From an uncultured Anaerolineae bacterium (GTDB taxonomy: Bacteria > Chloroflexota > Anaerolineae > J036 > Brachytrichaceae), in assembly GCA_938034415.1 (NCBI GenBank), contig CALHLE010000008.1, positions 1 to 64,000 of the forward strand: a stretch of DNA of 64,000 nt, read 5' to 3'. The position numbers and the translations under genes were made by a program. This document shows positions 36,907-51,297 of the stretch, one piece after another. The notes beneath the pieces were generated by a model. The model was not told the DNA's origin. It saw only the letters and a program-made list of their open reading frames with translations, and ran no database searches. How positions within the stretch are numbered: position 1 is the first letter of the stretch; the number at the start of each line of letters is the position of its first letter.

Positions 36907-39123
36907 TCAGTCTGCGGCTGCTTCGTCTTCGCCCGGCGCCGGCGGTGTGTCGCCCGCGCCGCCGAGCGTCGCGCTGTCAGATGCGCCCTTCCGCGCGCTG
37001 AACGCCGCGATCAACTCGCGCCATTGCTCGTCCAGTCCTTCATCGGTGACGCCGTAGAACACCACGACTTTGCCGCTGGCGTCGCGTATCGCCAGATCGG
37101 AGCGCATCTTGCCCGCGCGCATCTCGCGCGTGAGCACGGCGCGGTCGCCTTGCCATTCGATCTCCTCCGGTCCGCTGGGATGATCGGCGAACTGCGTGAT
37201 GGCATAGTGCCATAGGTCGCGCGCGCTCTTCATCGTCACGTTGCGAATGATTGAATTGTTGCGCAGGTCGCGCACGGTGAAATAGACCACGCCGCCGCGC
37301 TCTTCCATAGAAAGCACCTGGACGCCGGTCTTGGGTGTGCCTGGGAGCGCCGATGCGCCGTTGTTCTCCGCCGGCAGCGGCTGCGCGGCAATCGTCACGC
37401 TTGTCGGCTCGGTGGGCCGCGATTTGTCTCGACGCTCGCGCTGGGCTGGCGGCTGCGGTGGCTTGACTGCCGGCTGGTTTGGCTGCGGCGGGCGCTGTGG
37501 GTGCTGCTGTTGCGGCTGCGGCTGGGGTTTGCGCTGCTCATGTTGGCGTCGCTCTGGCTGTGGCTGCGACGGCTGCTGTGAGCGACGATCGGGTTGCGGT
37601 TGCTGAGCAGGCGGGCGTTGTTCTTGCGGCCTCGGCTTCTCATAGCCGCGCCGGGCGATGGCCACAATCTCATCGCGCGTCGCCGGGCGACTCTCCGCGT
37701 CTGCGCGCACGAAGAAACGCTCGCCGTCCAGCACGTAGGGCGCATCCTCGCCGCGCGGCACCTGGATCTGCAGCACGCTGGCGCCGTCCAGCGCGCGAAC
37801 CTGAACCGGGGCTAGAAGCCTCGGCGCGATGCGCTTCTCCATCTCGAGCGACAACTTCTGCAACACGTCGGGCGCATCGGATATGCCCGGCGCTTTCTTG
37901 TTGGGCTTGGCGTCGCAGCCGATGAAGATATTGCCTCCTTCACCATTGGCCATCGCGCAGATGTCACGCAGCACGGCGGCGAACCGATCGCCGCGTTTGG
38001 GCAATGACGCATAAAAGGCGACCGTGGCGCTCGGGCCGCGCTCGCGCGCCTTCACCAATTCATCTTCGGGCAGGTCCAGCACGTCGAATACCGGCCGCAC
38101 GCGGCTGAAGTCCTGGCTAAGGAACACGTTGCGCAGCGCCTCGAAGCTGACTTCGTCGAGTTGGATCTCCGTGGCGCGTTCGCCTACGCCCAATCGCTTG
38201 GCGTTCTCCTTCGAGGCGGTCAGCCGGTGGGCGTCGCTGCCCTGGATGGCGAACATGCGACGCGGATACTCCGGCTTGACGCCGGTGAACAAGTGCGCGC
38301 TAGAGTAACGTCCTCGGTCGAGGTCGGTGAACTCGATGGCGTGCAAATGCGGGTCTTGTGTGAAAGCGATGCGCGTCTGGCCGCCGAGATCGCGCCCGCG
38401 CATGGCAACGCCGTTCGACGAGTTGGCATGCGCGGCGATCGCGATGCCGCCAGCCTCGTCAATCGCCTCGTAGGCCTGCAGCACATCGCTGGTGGCGCCG
38501 GCTTCGGTCAAGCCCTTGTCCAGCGCATGGCCCGGCACGCGCAGGTCCATCAAGATGTGCTCGATGTCGCGCAGCGGCTTATCCGGCGGAAAGATGCCTA
38601 AGATGTGAAATCCGAACGTGGCTGTGAATTCAAACCCCGGCAGCACGAGGATCTTCTGGAGCAGGCGGCGGTACTCATTCAGGCGCGCCAGCTCGTCTGG
38701 ACGGATGCGGTCGAGCTTCTCCAGATATTCGAGATGCTCGATCTCGTTCATCATGTTGCGGTATCCGTTCACCGTGTTGTGATCGGTGAAGGCGATGATG
38801 CTGAGGCCGCGTCGCTCGGCTTGCTTCAGGATGTCGAGGTAGGTGATGTTCGGTTCTTCGTAATCGTGCGACGCCGGGGTGTGAACGTGCAAATCAACGC
38901 GCTTCCATGGACTGTCGGATGGCGATGCAGGTAGCAGGGGCTTTACCTCGGGTGCGCTTGCCGCGACCTTGCTCGCGCGGTTGCCGCGGCGCGACGATGT
39001 GCTGCGCGTGGATTTGGGTTCGGATTTCGATTTCTCGGATTCTAAGTCTGTCGCCTGGGTCGTCTTGTCGTTTTGCGATTCGCCCGATGCTACAGTGGTG
39101 GCTTCTTTCTTCTTTCTGGCCAT
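36907..39123 (-). CDS. PHP phosphoesterase-AlbA_2 (Schlafen-like) fusion protein
   Basis: The 738-residue protein has four parts. A Lys/Ser-rich basic N-terminus (1-65) precedes a PHP domain with all metal motifs: H79/H81 (DLHVHTPASHD), D114/H115 (FTDHNTV), H232 (AAHANSS) and D297/H299 (GSDAHR). Next is an AlbA_2 domain (about 365-485) with ICAMANGEGGNIFIGCD and RFFVRADAESRPATRDEI. A Gln/Pro-rich linker (about 495-575) leads to a C-terminal domain (about 600-715) of unknown type. PHP domains are phosphoesterases or nucleases, and AlbA_2 domains occur in nucleic-acid-targeting proteins. A nucleic-acid-processing or defence role is an inference. I use the ATG at 39123. Confidence 0.8.
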   Translation of the reverse strand: MARKKKEATTVASGESQNDKTTQATDLESEKSKSEPKSTRSTSSRRGNRASKVAASAPEVKPLLPASPSDSPWKRVDLHVHTPASHDYEEPNITYLDILKQAERRGLSIIAFTDHNTVNGYRNMMNEIEHLEYLEKLDRIRPDELARLNEYRRLLQKILVLPGFEFTATFGFHILGIFPPDKPLRDIEHILMDLRVPGHALDKGLTEAGATSDVLQAYEAIDEAGGIAIAAHANSSNGVAMRGRDLGGQTRIAFTQDPHLHAIEFTDLDRGRYSSAHLFTGVKPEYPRRMFAIQGSDAHRLTASKENAKRLGVGERATEIQLDEVSFEALRNVFLSQDFSRVRPVFDVLDLPEDELVKARERGPSATVAFYASLPKRGDRFAAVLRDICAMANGEGGNIFIGCDAKPNKKAPGISDAPDVLQKLSLEMEKRIAPRLLAPVQVRALDGASVLQIQVPRGEDAPYVLDGERFFVRADAESRPATRDEIVAIARRGYEKPRPQEQRPPAQQPQPDRRSQQPSQPQPERRQHEQRKPQPQPQQQHPQRPPQPNQPAVKPPQPPAQRERRDKSRPTEPTSVTIAAQPLPAENNGASALPGTPKTGVQVLSMEERGGVVYFTVRDLRNNSIIRNVTMKSARDLWHYAITQFADHPSGPEEIEWQGDRAVLTREMRAGKMRSDLAIRDASGKVVVFYGVTDEGLDEQWRELIAAFSARKGASDSATLGGAGDTPPAPGEDEAAAD

Positions 39124-39285
39124 AACAGCGGTCACAATGTTCAGTTCAAAATTACAGGCGCCGGTAGCGTTCCGGAGGGAATACCGCCCAAAATCAAAAT
39201 TCGCCGGCGAGCCTGAAATTCTCTGTCGCATTCGACCCCAGCGAGATGAGCAAACGCTGAGTGAGCGAAAGCGTCCTTTTCGACC

Positions 39286-44693: not shown

Positions 44694-45380
44694 GTGAACG
44701 TCCTCGTCATCATCGCTCATCCCGACGACCCCGAGTTCTTCGCCGGCGGCACGATCGCCCGTTGGTGCCACGAAGGCCACAACGTGCGCTACGTCGTCGT
44801 CACCGGCGGCGAAAAGGGCAGCGACCAGCCCGATATGACGCCGGCTCGGCTCTTGGCCATCCGCCGCGACGAGCAACGCAACGCTGCCGCCGTCCTGGGT
44901 GTGCGCGATGTCACCTTTCTCAGCCACGTGGACGGCGAGCTGCTGAACACGCTAGACATACGGCGCGATCTGGTGCGCGAAATTCGCCGGGCGCGCCCGG
45001 ATATCGTCCTAACGACCGACCCACAGACGCTGCACTACGGCGCGATGCGCGTTAACCACAACGACCACCGCGCCGTCGGCCTGGCGGTCTGCGACGCAAT
45101 CTTCCCGGCGGCGAGCAACCGAATGTACTTCCCCGAACTGCTGGCGGACGGCTTCGCGCCTCATGCGCCGAAGGAGATCTACTTCGCCGGCCCGGCTCGG
45201 CCGAATGCGCTGGTGGATGTCACCGATTTCATCCAGGCCAAGATCGAGGCGATCCGCATGCACGCTTCACAAGTTAAAGCGCCGGACGAGCTGGAGTCGC
45301 GCATCCGGCAGGGGCTGCTGCGCATGACCGCCGACGGTCGCATCTTTTTCGCAGAGGCGTTCCGGCGCATCTTGCTATAA
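44694..45380 (+). CDS. LmbE/PIG-L family N-deacetylase
   Basis: The Zn-dependent enzymes of this family remove acetyl groups from GlcNAc-containing molecules such as GlcNAc-malate (bacillithiol) or GlcNAc-PI. The motif AHPDDPEFFAGGT at residues 8-20 gives the His/Asp/Asp metal and base residues, and VNHNDHRAVG in the middle contributes the third ligand. At 228 residues it is normal. It starts with GTG 48 nt after ricT. Located directly upstream of the glycosidase-like cluster, it could deacetylate a glycan processed there; bacillithiol synthesis is the other obvious option. Confidence 0.88.
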   Translation: MNVLVIIAHPDDPEFFAGGTIARWCHEGHNVRYVVVTGGEKGSDQPDMTPARLLAIRRDEQRNAAAVLGVRDVTFLSHVDGELLNTLDIRRDLVREIRRARPDIVLTTDPQTLHYGAMRVNHNDHRAVGLAVCDAIFPAASNRMYFPELLADGFAPHAPKEIYFAGPARPNALVDVTDFIQAKIEAIRMHASQVKAPDELESRIRQGLLRMTADGRIFFAEAFRRILL

Positions 45381-45721: not shown

Positions 45722-48652
45722 ATGAATGGGCCTTCTATGCATCGAGAATCCGATTCGAGTGCCTCGGGCGCTTCGGATCCCGGTTTATCAGGCTTGACAG
45801 AGACGCCGGTCATTGACCGCATCCCTCGGCTGGCCGATAGAAAGCACAAGCCACCGCGCTCAACCCGCGAAACCCCACGCACGCAGTTCCTGCTGCCGAC
45901 GACGCGCGCGGGTTGGCTGAAAGTGATCGGCGTTGCCTTCGCCGCCGTCTTGTCCGTAGGCGCGGCGCTTGTGAGCCTGCGCCTGCTCAGCGCCAATGAT
46001 TGCAGCGAATTCACGACCGAGCGGACGACGGTGGCTGCCGAGGACTTTCAGATTCAGGTGATGCCGAGCGATCTGACCGGCAGCTTTGGCGTGAAGCTGG
46101 GCGTCTTGTCGTTGGCCGACCTCACTGCTGCGTCTCGTGACGCCGAGCTTCAAGCTGCTGCCTCCGGCCTGCCATCTGGGTTAACGATTGTGGGCGACCC
46201 GGTCAGGGTCAAAACCTGCAGCGCCGATCCCAAGCGGGCGACGCTGCGCATGAGCATCCCGCCTGGCGTGGAAGCAGACACGAGTTTGGATTTGTATGGC
46301 TGGGATAGCCGAGCGCGTGCGTGGGCGTGGCTCGGCGGCGAGTTGGATGCGGCGTCTCGAACTGTTGTGGCGCATGTGACCCGCGTGCCTTCGCTCGTGG
46401 CGTTAATGAGAGTTGCGCCCATTCCGCCTGCGCTCGGCGTCGAGCTGCCGCCGGCGTCCCGTGATCCGACGGCGATCGCCCAGTCTATCCCGCCTGGCGC
46501 CGGGATCGGCTATGCCACTGGCCTCTATCTGGGCGACCGCAGCAGCATCGTCGGCGACCCGGGTAGGTTGCTGCGGCCAAGCAGTGTGCCCCTGAGGGTC
46601 ATCCCAGTCGTGCGCAACTGGGGCGCGCAAGGCGAAGTCAACCGCACGCTGCTGCGCGCGATGCTGGCCAGCGAAGCAAGCCGCGCTGCGCATGTGAACG
46701 CGCTGATTGGTCTCGTCGCGGCCGGTGGCTTCGAGGGCGTGCAGATAGACTATCGCGGCGTGGAAGCGGCGCAGCGCGACGCCTTTTCGCAATTCATCGA
46801 GCAACTCGGCGCGCGTTTGGCCGAGCGTGGCAAGATCCTCAGCGTCGCCGTCCCTGCCCCCGCGCTCACGGACCCAACCGGCGTGTTCGACTCGTTGGGC
46901 TATGACCTGTATCGGATTGGCCAAGCCGCTGCACTGGTGCAGCTCGATTTAAGCGCCAACCCTGAGGTGTGGTGTACCGACCGGTTGGATCCGTTGATGA
47001 CATGGGCGGTTGGCCGTGTGGATCGCCGTAAGCTGCAGGTGATCCTCCCGACCCTGAGCGTCCAGAAAGATGCCAACGGGCGGGTGAGGCTGGCCGGCCT
47101 GGAGGAGGCGCTGGCTGTTCTGGGTGGGCTGCAGACCGTAGCGCCCGCCGTTGCGCCTGGCGCCAGCGTCAGGATGTGGTGGAGCGGCGATGTCGAACCG
47201 TCCGATGCGCGCTATGACCCGACCGGTCAGTTCTACTCCTATAGCTACGTAGATGAACGCGGCATCCAGCAGACGGTGTGGCTGAACACTGCCGCCAGCT
47301 TTAAGCGCACGCTGGAGCGCCTGAGTCGGCATAACATGCGCGGCGTCACACTGCGCGGGCTGACGCATCCCGGCAACGATGACGGCGTGATGCAAATTGT
47401 GGATGGCTTCATGCGCGGCGACCTGGCTTCGGTGCAGGCGCCAGAACCGGTGATCAAAGTGTCGTTTGGCGCCGGCACGCCGTTTAGCCTGCTGCTGAGC
47501 CAGGGCGCAGAGGCGATGATCGTGCAGGCGCCTGGCGGCGAGGGCCAGTATGAGATCACTTCTGCCTTTCAAAGCGCGCGGGCGGTGACCTTGAACCCGG
47601 CGCGTGTGTTGGTATCCAAAGATGCGCCCACTGACGAAGGCGGCGCAGATGCGGCGTCTGTTGCGTCGGCTGCTGCGGGTCAAGCGTCTCAAGGCGCTGC
47701 GTCTCCCATGCCCGGCGTAAACGCCGAGCGATTCGAACTCGGCGGCCATGTCAACGACCTGGCCCACGCCGCGCAGATGAAGACCGCAGGCATGACCTGG
47801 GCGCGCACCGAGGTGCGCGGCGAAGCCGTGCCCGAGGCATTTATCGCCGAAGCCAAAGCCAAAGGATTGAAAGTGCTCGTCACCGCCGTCGGCGATCGCA
47901 GCCGCGTGATGGATGTCGCTTACCGCGATCAATGGGCGCAACACCTGGGCAAAATCGCGGCTGCCGGCGCGGATGCGATCGAGGTGTGGAGCGAGCCGAA
48001 CTATAAGGCGGAATGGCCGGCCGGTCAGATCAGCGGTGCGTCTTATGCCGACCTGTTGAAGCGCGCTTACTTTGCCATCAAACAGGTTAATCCCAATGTA
48101 CTGGTGATCAGCGCCGGACTGGCGCAGACATCGGGCGTGTTTGCCGGCGGATGCGCCGAGGACGGCTGCGATGAGTTGGCCTTCCTGAACCAGATGGCCG
48201 CCGAGCGAGCTCAGGATTACATGGACTGTGTGGGCATCCACTACACGTCTGGCTTTGAGTCGCCCAGCGCGGTAGGCGCGCTCCATTACTCTCAATATTA
48301 CGAGCCGCTGCGCAACGCGCACTATGGCGCGTTCAACGGCGCCAAGCCGGTGTGCTTCACGGCGCTGGGCTATGTGACGGCGGATGGGTTCCCTTCAGGC
48401 ATGCCGGCCAAGTATTCGTTTGCCGCAGGCACGACGTTGGCCGATCATTCAGCATGGTTAGCCGAAGCGGCTAAGCTCTCCAAAGCAAGCGGCAAGGTCC
48501 GTTTGATGATCGTGTGGAACGTGGATGCGACGGAGTGGATTGCGGATGATCCTTCTCGAAACATCGAAGGTGATCCTCAGGCAGGCTACGCCATGATTCG
48601 ACCTGACGGCACGTGTCCGGCTTGCGAAGCTTTGCGCAGCGTCATGAAATGA
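45722..48652 (+). CDS. Membrane-anchored two-domain glycosidase-like pseudoenzyme
   Basis: The 976-residue protein has one transmembrane anchor (about residues 62-85) after a polar N-terminus. An external beta-rich domain (about 90-255) precedes a GH18/YaaH-like barrel (about 265-580). Its catalytic strand reads GFEGVQIDYRGVE, so the usual DxxDxDxE has become ExxQxDxR, with R345 in place of the acid. After a Gly/Ala linker, a clan-A barrel (about 665-970) has VWSEPN (acid/base E758) but TALGY where the nucleophile should be (A881). Both barrels thus look catalytically inactive, so binding or scaffolding is more likely than hydrolysis. The next gene overlaps by 4 nt. Confidence 0.75.
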   Translation: MNGPSMHRESDSSASGASDPGLSGLTETPVIDRIPRLADRKHKPPRSTRETPRTQFLLPTTRAGWLKVIGVAFAAVLSVGAALVSLRLLSANDCSEFTTERTTVAAEDFQIQVMPSDLTGSFGVKLGVLSLADLTAASRDAELQAAASGLPSGLTIVGDPVRVKTCSADPKRATLRMSIPPGVEADTSLDLYGWDSRARAWAWLGGELDAASRTVVAHVTRVPSLVALMRVAPIPPALGVELPPASRDPTAIAQSIPPGAGIGYATGLYLGDRSSIVGDPGRLLRPSSVPLRVIPVVRNWGAQGEVNRTLLRAMLASEASRAAHVNALIGLVAAGGFEGVQIDYRGVEAAQRDAFSQFIEQLGARLAERGKILSVAVPAPALTDPTGVFDSLGYDLYRIGQAAALVQLDLSANPEVWCTDRLDPLMTWAVGRVDRRKLQVILPTLSVQKDANGRVRLAGLEEALAVLGGLQTVAPAVAPGASVRMWWSGDVEPSDARYDPTGQFYSYSYVDERGIQQTVWLNTAASFKRTLERLSRHNMRGVTLRGLTHPGNDDGVMQIVDGFMRGDLASVQAPEPVIKVSFGAGTPFSLLLSQGAEAMIVQAPGGEGQYEITSAFQSARAVTLNPARVLVSKDAPTDEGGADAASVASAAAGQASQGAASPMPGVNAERFELGGHVNDLAHAAQMKTAGMTWARTEVRGEAVPEAFIAEAKAKGLKVLVTAVGDRSRVMDVAYRDQWAQHLGKIAAAGADAIEVWSEPNYKAEWPAGQISGASYADLLKRAYFAIKQVNPNVLVISAGLAQTSGVFAGGCAEDGCDELAFLNQMAAERAQDYMDCVGIHYTSGFESPSAVGALHYSQYYEPLRNAHYGAFNGAKPVCFTALGYVTADGFPSGMPAKYSFAAGTTLADHSAWLAEAAKLSKASGKVRLMIVWNVDATEWIADDPSRNIEGDPQAGYAMIRPDGTCPACEALRSVMK

Positions 48653-50100
48653 GCCGATACACCTTCAACCCTAAGCTCGACCCCAGTCGGGAACGCAATC
48701 GTCGTTTGCTCGTCAGCGTCGCCGCATTAGGCGCGACTGCGTTGTTTGCCCTAGCGCTGCTCGGCTTCGGCATCTGCTTGTTGACCGGCGGGTGCGCGAT
48801 CGGCAGCACAGGAGCGGCTGAAGAACCCACGCCGTTCGTCCCAGAGGTGACCATCTTTGCGCCGCAAGTTACACCGCCGACGAGCGGAGTTTCGGACAGC
48901 GCGTCGGCCAACACTGCGCCGCCGCCCGCTGCAACCATGGATCCGCGCGGGAAGATCGAAGGCATTGACGACTTTGTGTGCCCCAACCCGCGCCCTGCGC
49001 CGGCGCGGTTCGGTTACGGCATCCAGAGCAACTGGCCGGTCGGCGACATCGGCCTGTTCAACTCCATCATGGCCGAGCAACTGAAGATGGACTGGACGAA
49101 GGCACAGGTGCGCTGGACGGACTTTGAGCCTAACGGTCGCGGTCAATACGAGCTATACAAGTGGCAACTGCTGGACGCCTTTACCGCTGACGCCAATAAG
49201 AAAGGCTTGCACATCTTGTTCGGCGTGCTCGATGCGCCGGCATGGGCGCGACCCCGAAACGCCAACCCCGCGCGGCCGGACCTGCTTGGCCCACCGGATG
49301 ACTACGAGGACGCGCGCATCTTCATCGAGAAGCTGCTCGCCCGCTACAAGGGCTGCGTGCAGGCCATCGAGGTGTGGAACGAGATGAACCTCGACCGCGA
49401 GTGGACGGTCGCCTCCCGCCAGATCAAAGCCAGCGATTACGTGGCTTTCCTGGATGCGATTGTGCCCACCATCCGCGCGATCGACCCGAGCGTCATCGTG
49501 CTGATGGGCGCTCTCTCGCCAACCGGCGCGAACATCACTCAAGATGGTGTGATGCAGGTGGTGGATGACCTGACCTACATGGATCAGTTCGTCGCCGCCG
49601 GCGGCCCCGCCCGCGTGGACTGCATTGGCGTGCACCTGAACGGCTACAACATGCCGCCCGATAAGGAGTGGAACGAGGGCTACAACGATCCCACGGCGAC
49701 CTTCCGCGGCCCGTTCGACTCGCCTCATCCGTCGTGGTCGTTCAAGAGCACGATGCGTCTGTATCACGAGAAAACGCGAAAGCCGCTGTGCGTGACCGAA
49801 TTCGGCTGGGCTTCGATGGAGAACCTCAAGCGCTCAGACGGGTCGCCCGTGCAAGGCGCGCCGCCTGGGTTCGGCTTTGCGCTCGACAACACCGAGCAAG
49901 AGCAAGCCGACTGGATCGTGCAAGGCTTCCAGATCATGCGCGATAGCGGCTATGTCAAGTTCGCCATCGTCTTCAACCTAGACTACATTCAGAAAGTGGG
50001 CGGCGAGCCGGATCAGGAGAACGTCGCGCCGTATAGCATTACGCGGCGCGATGGGTCGCCGCGCCCGGCTTTTGAGGCGCTGAAGGCCATGCCGCGCTAG
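48649..50100 (+). CDS. Membrane-anchored clan-A glycoside hydrolase-like protein
   Basis: The 483-residue protein has a short basic cytoplasmic start, one hydrophobic anchor (about residues 22-50) with a Cys-rich end, a Pro/Thr/Ala-rich linker, and a clan-A (GH39/GH5-like) barrel from about residue 105. The acid/base is E245 in AIEVWNEMN and the nucleophile E384 in CVTEFGWAS, both intact, so it should be active. The barrel aligns with the C-terminal domain of the preceding protein and with the next gene's product. Its ATG overlaps the preceding stop (ATGA). The substrate is unknown. Confidence 0.78.
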   Translation: MSRYTFNPKLDPSRERNRRLLVSVAALGATALFALALLGFGICLLTGGCAIGSTGAAEEPTPFVPEVTIFAPQVTPPTSGVSDSASANTAPPPAATMDPRGKIEGIDDFVCPNPRPAPARFGYGIQSNWPVGDIGLFNSIMAEQLKMDWTKAQVRWTDFEPNGRGQYELYKWQLLDAFTADANKKGLHILFGVLDAPAWARPRNANPARPDLLGPPDDYEDARIFIEKLLARYKGCVQAIEVWNEMNLDREWTVASRQIKASDYVAFLDAIVPTIRAIDPSVIVLMGALSPTGANITQDGVMQVVDDLTYMDQFVAAGGPARVDCIGVHLNGYNMPPDKEWNEGYNDPTATFRGPFDSPHPSWSFKSTMRLYHEKTRKPLCVTEFGWASMENLKRSDGSPVQGAPPGFGFALDNTEQEQADWIVQGFQIMRDSGYVKFAIVFNLDYIQKVGGEPDQENVAPYSITRRDGSPRPAFEALKAMPR

Positions 50101-50130: not shown

Positions 50131-51297
50131 ATGAGACGAGCACGCCAGGCCGCCTGGATGGTCGTTGCGGCGTTGGTAGCCGCATGCGCAGCGCCAAACG
50201 TCATGCGTCCGCCGCCGCAGGCCGAGTCGGCGCGGCCCGTCGCGCCGCAATTTCCTCCGCCGCGCCGGGTCGAGTCGCCCGGCTATGGCTTTGAGGCCTA
50301 TCTGTGGTGGAAGCCGGAGATCGCCACGCGCGACTTGGGGCTAATTCGCGAGGCCGGCTTCAAGTGGGTCAAGCAGACCTTCGCCTGGCGCGACATCGAG
50401 ATTGAGCAAGGCATATACGACTGGAGCCGCGCCGATCAGGTCGTGTTCCTGGCGACGGAGGTCTTCACGCGCAATTTGATCGCGCGGTTGGATCGCGAGC
50501 CGTACTGGGACCGCCGCGACTATCCACTCGGCCAGGGCATCGCCGCCGGCCCACCGCGTCACCTTCAGCATTTCTTTAACTTCTGCGCTGCCATCGCTGC
50601 GCGCTACAAAGGCAAGATCGCCGCGTATCAGGTCTGGAACGAGCCGAACCTGGCGCGCGAGTGGGGCGGCATGCCTCCCGATCCGCGCGCCTACGTCGAG
50701 ATGTTGAGGGGATGCTACCTGGCCATCAAGCAAGCCGACCCCGATGCACTCGTGATCAGCGCCGGCTTGGCGCCGACCGGCACTGGCCCGCCGCTGGCCA
50801 TGCCGGACGAGCAATTCCTCATCGCGATGTATGAGGCCGGCGCAGCGCCCTACTTCGACCTGTTGGGCGTGCATGCGCCCGGGTTCCGCGCCGCGCCGGA
50901 GACGCCGCCCGGCATGGCCGTCAGCATCCCTGAGCTGGGTGGGCAGCGTTTCTTCGCCTTCCGCCGCGTCGAGGACTTGCGGGCGATCATGGAGCGCTTC
51001 GGCGATGGTCACAAACAAGTTGCCGTGCTGGAGTTCGGCTGGACGACCGATCCGGTCAACACGAACTACGCCTGGTTCGCCATAGACGAGCAGTTGAAAG
51101 CGGACTACATGGTGCGCGCCTTTCGCTGGGCCAGGCAGAATTGGCAGCCGTGGATCGGCCCGATGATCGCGCTCTCCATCCCGCAGTTCGACTGGACGCC
51201 GCAGAACGAGCAGTACTGGTGGGCTGTTGTGGATCCGCACTATCCGGAGACGCGCACGCGCCCGGCCTATGAGGCGCTGAAGGCGATGGACAAGTGA
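50131..51297 (+). CDS. Lipoprotein clan-A glycoside hydrolase-like protein
   Basis: A lipobox (LVAAC, Cys near residue 19) makes this a surface lipoprotein. The barrel begins about residue 50 (GYGFEAYLWWKPEIATRDLG) and contains the acid/base E171 in YQVWNEPN and the nucleophile E301 in VAVLEFGWTT. It is clearly related to the two preceding proteins and has the same AxVISAGLAPTG and RPAYEALKAM segments. At 388 residues it lacks the long linker. It lies 30 nt after its neighbour, in one operon. The polysaccharide target is not evident. Confidence 0.78.
   Translation: MRRARQAAWMVVAALVAACAAPNVMRPPPQAESARPVAPQFPPPRRVESPGYGFEAYLWWKPEIATRDLGLIREAGFKWVKQTFAWRDIEIEQGIYDWSRADQVVFLATEVFTRNLIARLDREPYWDRRDYPLGQGIAAGPPRHLQHFFNFCAAIAARYKGKIAAYQVWNEPNLAREWGGMPPDPRAYVEMLRGCYLAIKQADPDALVISAGLAPTGTGPPLAMPDEQFLIAMYEAGAAPYFDLLGVHAPGFRAAPETPPGMAVSIPELGGQRFFAFRRVEDLRAIMERFGDGHKQVAVLEFGWTTDPVNTNYAWFAIDEQLKADYMVRAFRWARQNWQPWIGPMIALSIPQFDWTPQNEQYWWAVVDPHYPETRTRPAYEALKAMDK

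Follow-up and report, generated by a model that had tools for sequence, protein, structure and literature searches.

The stretch of DNA analysed here (the window) comprises 64,000 nucleotides from an organism in the same genus as Ca. Roseilinea (class Anaerolineae), whose closest named record is NK_OTU-006 at 85% identity. Three tandem genes on the forward strand encode glycosidase-like proteins (Table 1). The first encodes a fused protein with a cytoplasmic tail of about 65 amino acids, followed by a transmembrane segment, a β-rich domain that is conserved throughout the class together with the barrel behind it, a GH18-like barrel, a linker and a second barrel of clan A (GH39/PslG-like). Read from an upstream GTG, the same open reading frame would give 1000 amino acids. 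The fused product is best explained as a cell-surface protein of the Anaerolineae envelope that is held in the membrane by a type II anchor. A search of NCBIfam with the fused protein returned no family. The start codon of the second gene overlaps the stop codon of the first (ATGA, as read from the coordinates), which suggests translational coupling of the two genes. Elsewhere in the window, a 774-amino-acid open reading frame (36907-39231, reverse strand) joins a Schlafen AlbA_2 domain to a weak PHP domain match.

Table 1. Features of the fused gene and the two tandem genes downstream of it, in coordinates of the window.
Feature	Position	Strand	Basis
Fused pseudo-GH18 / pseudo-GH39-like membrane protein	45722..48652	+	976 aa, ATG start; orthologues
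Single N-terminal transmembrane segment, residues 68-86	45923..45979	+	hydropathy maximum 2.44
β-rich N-terminal domain, about residues 96-255	46007..46486	+	alignment; strands in model
GH18-like barrel of YaaH/SleL type, about residues 256-585	46487..47476	+	Pfam, PDB profile search, model, structure search
D343-Y344-R345, Arg replaces GH18 catalytic Glu	46748..46756	+	alignment, homologue residue counts
Low-complexity linker, residues about 590-665	47489..47716	+	highest ω (0.32)
GH39/PslG-like barrel, residues 670-976	47729..48649	+	PDB profile match, model, structure search
R695..E697 in place of K..Q (K..Q in 133/134 intact homologues)	47804..47812	+	alignment
S757-E758, acid/base Glu kept, preceding Asn replaced by Ser	47990..47995	+	alignment
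A881, Ala replaces nucleophile Glu	48362..48364	+	alignment, residue counts, tree
Next gene, membrane-anchored GH39-like protein, intact NE...TEFGW	48649..50100	+	sequence; downstream-gene comparison
Third tandem gene, lipoprotein-like GH39/clan-A protein, intact NE...LEFGW	50131..51297	+	sequence; domain tree; locus comparison

A profile of the GH18-like half detected the family in 175 of 199 genomes of the class, usually as a single copy in an open reading frame of about 1000 amino acids, and the fused protein also occurs in hot-spring relatives of Roseilinea. Matches outside the class were nearly all short and weak and came from ordinary GH18 proteins that keep the Glu. Within the class, family f27 contains many near-complete genomes without the GH18-like family. 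Unless stated otherwise, the residue counts given below refer to 152 full-length orthologues of the fused protein.

The fused protein matches PF00704 just above the cut-off (30.2 bits, with a cut-off of 29.6). In a profile search of PDB chains, its GH18-like half retrieved 5jh8 (5e-37), YdhD 3cz8 (2e-33) and YaaH 4s3k (4e-29), while the clan-A half retrieved PslG 4zn2 (8e-20). AlphaFold models of the two barrels, built from alignments of the fetched homologous loci, reached a mean pLDDT of 94.3 and 95.2. Foldseek placed the first model next to SleL 4s3j (3e-19) and 5jh8 (1e-18), and the structure search with the second gave PslG 5bx9 as best match. Both folds are thus intact in the models, as an earlier sequence-only reading of this DNA had supposed.

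That reading had also placed an Arg at the GH18 acid position, and the alignment puts it exactly there: the GH18-like half adopts the expected barrel fold, but in its motif FEGVQIDYRGV the residues DYR stand against DFE, with R345 opposite the catalytic Glu of the D-x-E motif on strand 4 in 3cz8, 5jh8 and 4q6t. D343, two residues ahead of this site, is present in 131 of the 152 orthologues. The acid position itself carries Arg in 123 of them, Gln in nine and Glu in four, the rest having other residues, and parsimony on the full-protein tree gives Arg as the root state. A search by conservation for another acid near the site found no Glu kept in at least 80% of the 152 homologues anywhere in the GH18-like half. 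Because Arg is dominant and the root state, and no Glu is conserved at this level, the GH18-like barrel was apparently silenced before the class diversified. By canonical criteria, this half is a class-wide pseudoenzyme, a GH18 fold without its catalytic Glu in the manner of chi-lectins, with the Arg as a family hallmark. The Pfam label GH18 is probably wrong in functional terms for a family that spans most genomes of the class. One full-length relative, L098 (7860-10703), has DFE and with it a complete GH18 D-x-E motif while nested among Leu/Arg relatives, which may mean that the catalytic Glu was regained there.

In the clan-A half, A881 lies in the sequence CFTALGY, and TALGY aligns where PslG carries its nucleophile; the Glu expected on strand 7 is absent, again exactly where it had been reported missing. 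PslG uses Glu276 as nucleophile and Glu165 as acid/base (PMC11912335). The acid/base site after strand 4 had been described as changed from Asn-Glu to Ser-Glu, which is correct for the Asn (residue 757) but leaves the catalytic residue untouched: E758 is kept in the source protein and in 151 of 151 sequences in which the site is aligned. At the nucleophile position, 135 of the 152 proteins have Glu, 13 Ala and two Asp, with two unaligned. Both canonical catalytic sites are thus very probably disabled in the source protein. R345 and A881 do not stem from a sequencing error or frameshift, as each is seen again in independent genomes (123 and 13 of the 152 full-length homologues, respectively).

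The 13 sequences with Ala881 form one clade (support 0.98), and parsimony needs two changes at the nucleophile position of the fused protein. Among the neighbours of this clade, L016 and L017 keep both Asn-Glu and the nucleophile Glu, L011 combines Asp-Glu with the nucleophile Glu, and L019 and L044 have Ser-Glu with Asp at the nucleophile position; L009 again has Asn ahead of the acid/base Glu. The graded states in L016/L017, L019/L044 and L011 place the loss of the Asn before that of the nucleophile. The clan-A loss is recent and confined to the clade around Ca. Roseilinea, the site being intact almost everywhere else. The sequence-only reading had treated the loss at both sites together. 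Both centres are indeed affected, but the losses are separate events, the GH18-like one ancestral to the class and the clan-A one limited to a single clade. It had also named orthologues with intact catalytic residues as the evidence against it, and these exist for A881 in large numbers, but R345 has no comparable set. A swap of the fused clan-A domain for that of an SH3-GH39 paralogue in Roseilinea was considered but is not supported, as the domain tree groups the A881 domains with the fused domains of L011 and L019 and not with the SH3 group. L016 and L017 differ in this respect: their fused clan-A domain clusters with the SH3-GH39 paralogues, apart from the other fused domains, which suggests a domain swap in these two.

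Further intact clan-A proteins are encoded both close by and elsewhere. The next two proteins carry TEFGW and LEFGW as previously noted. The examined genomes of the A881 clade also encode an SH3-GH39 protein, unlinked to this locus, whose residues are intact. Active paralogues had been proposed to stand beside the fused protein; this holds for clan A but not for GH18, as the fused protein is the sole PF00704 match in the source genome. Among 98 loci with enough room downstream, 74 have an adjoining GH39-like gene; the third tandem gene type is found at 49 of 59 loci. Nine loci from other lineages (L121, L124, L125, L116, L128, L122, L131, L146 and L182) present the mirror image of the source locus: in the adjacent downstream gene the nucleophile is replaced by Ala or Lys, and the fused protein keeps its Glu. 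These nine losses correspond to about five changes by parsimony, and in five of the nine downstream genes the acid/base Glu is replaced by Gln as well. Among the loci compared, none was seen with the nucleophile lost in both genes. The reciprocal pairing of a dead and a live copy comprises few independent events and is suggestive only. Directly upstream of the fused gene lies a gene for a PIG-L type GlcNAc de-N-acetylase (44694-45380, forward strand), and a PMT_2-like glycosyltransferase is encoded downstream in part of the class; both neighbours are consistent with an envelope-glycan setting but do not prove one.

Taking protein and locus together, we propose, with a probability of about 50%, that the fused protein is a subunit anchored in the membrane that holds glycan next to active GH39 partners and probably grips rather than cuts envelope sugars. 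Glycan binding, the partnership with the next protein and the nature of the glycan are what we infer here. The four full-length relatives with Glu at the GH18 site, among them L098, speak against such a role. The conservation of the silenced barrels could also be explained by a purely structural or protein-protein role, in which both barrels are platforms that hold the GH39-like neighbour at the membrane and bind no glycan. The ATGA overlap, the conserved tandem and the dead/live pairing in both directions across lineages agree with such a scaffold. The clan-A pocket does not: W693, W756, E758, N760 and W932 are unchanged in the A881 clade despite the loss of the nucleophile, which fits a pocket that is still used, and we consider the scaffold unlikely.

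Other positions of the same pocket have been rewritten. The 134 intact homologues are nearly invariant at K695 (133), Q697 (133), P802 (134) and D818 (134). In the A881 clade, residue 695 is Arg and residue 697 Glu in 11 of the 13 members, residue 802 is Gln and residue 818 Glu in all 13, N757 is also replaced, and some members differ at H840; the two members known to lack E697 have Gly (L012) and Tyr (L013). Since PslG itself carries Arg at column 695 and Asp at column 697 of the PDB profile alignment, the new R695/E697 pair may concern ligand recognition. Within the genus, pairwise ω, calculated as a domain average, is 0.073 in the A881 domain, which is near the 0.044 of both the intact next gene and the intact SH3-GH39 protein and lower than in the GH18-like half (0.18) or the linker (0.32). 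Near-invariant pocket residues have been replaced, yet ω is as low as 0.07; the clan-A half of the Roseilinea clade therefore appears remodelled rather than decayed, and both halves are under purifying selection.

These values also bear on plain relaxation after duplication, according to which a redundant barrel is decaying without any new function while paralogues cover its activity. Active-looking paralogues are indeed found in the same genome, and the next gene has independently lost its nucleophile in other lineages, as redundancy would permit. A decaying domain would sit badly with an ω of 0.073 and a median domain identity of 91% within the genus, with replaced pocket residues that are fixed genus-wide and not scattered, and with the absence of in-frame stops or frameshifts in the fused gene among the matches listed, making this explanation quite unlikely. 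Rewriting at several otherwise invariant pocket positions is easier to reconcile with repurposing than with a mere dead copy.

Repurposing could even have preserved catalysis, since R695/E697 resemble the Arg/Asp of active PslG and the rewritten pocket could still be catalytic. The clan-A half would then be an enzyme with a changed mechanism, in which E758 remains the general acid and the missing nucleophile is replaced by a relocated carboxylate (E697 or E818) or by the 2-acetamido group of the substrate. E758 is present in every sequence with the site aligned, Q697 and D818 both became Glu in the very clade that lost Glu881, the domain is under strong purifying selection, and there is a precedent in family GH97, whose glycosidases were able to move a carboxylate and to switch between retaining and inverting mechanisms (PMC2670981). 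Nevertheless, E697 is missing from L012 and L013 within the A881 clade, the Asn preceding E758 has gone, and H840 is not constant throughout the clade. Moreover, PslG combines its Asp at column 697 with a separate nucleophile, and an acidic residue in this column does not in itself amount to a new catalytic residue. We regard a changed mechanism as very unlikely. The more specific version, a rebuilt barrel in which E697, E818 and R695 offset the loss of Glu881 and which acts as a (trans)glycosidase using E758 and a relocated carboxylate, is highly unlikely; if true, a mechanism switch would have been caught in progress, with intact (L016), intermediate (L011 and L019) and converted forms among the relatives.

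For the glycan-holding role that we favour, the following course of events can be envisaged. The YaaH/SleL-type barrel would have lost its catalytic Glu in the ancestor of the class, with Arg becoming fixed, and would most likely serve as a putative glycan-docking module. The PslG/GH39-type barrel would have been the original catalytic half. In the Ca. Roseilinea clade, whose sister lineages already lack the Asn, a single Glu-to-Ala event would have removed the nucleophile. After the rewriting of its pocket, the clan-A domain would have been kept as a non-hydrolytic module that holds glycan or positions a partner. Hydrolysis would be the task of the two GH39-like genes downstream, the first of which overlaps the fused gene, and of the unlinked SH3-GH39 paralogue. 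The fused protein, from its membrane anchor, would use one of its silenced barrels, or both, to hold an envelope glycan. The envelope glycans of this class are little known.

Pseudoglycosidases as such are already known, and PslG is the GH39-type endo-β-glucanase of the Psl exopolysaccharide system (PDB 4zn2, 5bx9). The clan-A half shares with PslG, its best PDB match by both sequence and structure, the fold and the acid/base Glu, but it has Ala881 for Glu276 and Ser for Asn, is fused to a pseudo-GH18 barrel, and no psl-like operon was seen around the fused gene. GH18 glycosidases of the YaaH/SleL/YdhD type (4s3j, 4s3k, 3cz8, 5jh8) resemble the 256-585 barrel in fold and sequence, including the Asp of D-x-E and a GYD motif; the fused protein differs from them by its class-wide Arg in place of the catalytic Glu, its GH39-like barrel and its membrane anchor. 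Lectins derived from GH18 have been described (PMC3662789). Chi-lectins and chitinase-like proteins (YKL-40, Ym1, TCLL), several of which were among the structure-search matches of the GH18-like model, likewise retain the barrel without its catalytic Glu. In contrast to them, the fused protein is bacterial, is nearest to the YaaH/SleL subfamily, has Arg at the site throughout a class and carries a second glycosidase fold. The literature searched, which was covered in part, yielded no description of the fused family, and the feature not found described is an Arg-dominant YaaH-type barrel across a class, fused to a GH39-type barrel that is intact in most of the class and was remodelled in one clade. 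Such a family offers a natural time course of enzymes turning into pseudoenzymes. One barrel fell silent in the class ancestor and the other stepwise within one family of genomes, first at the Asn and then at the nucleophile (to Asp or Ala); intact, intermediate and converted orthologues are all available, and in other lineages it is the partner gene that was silenced.
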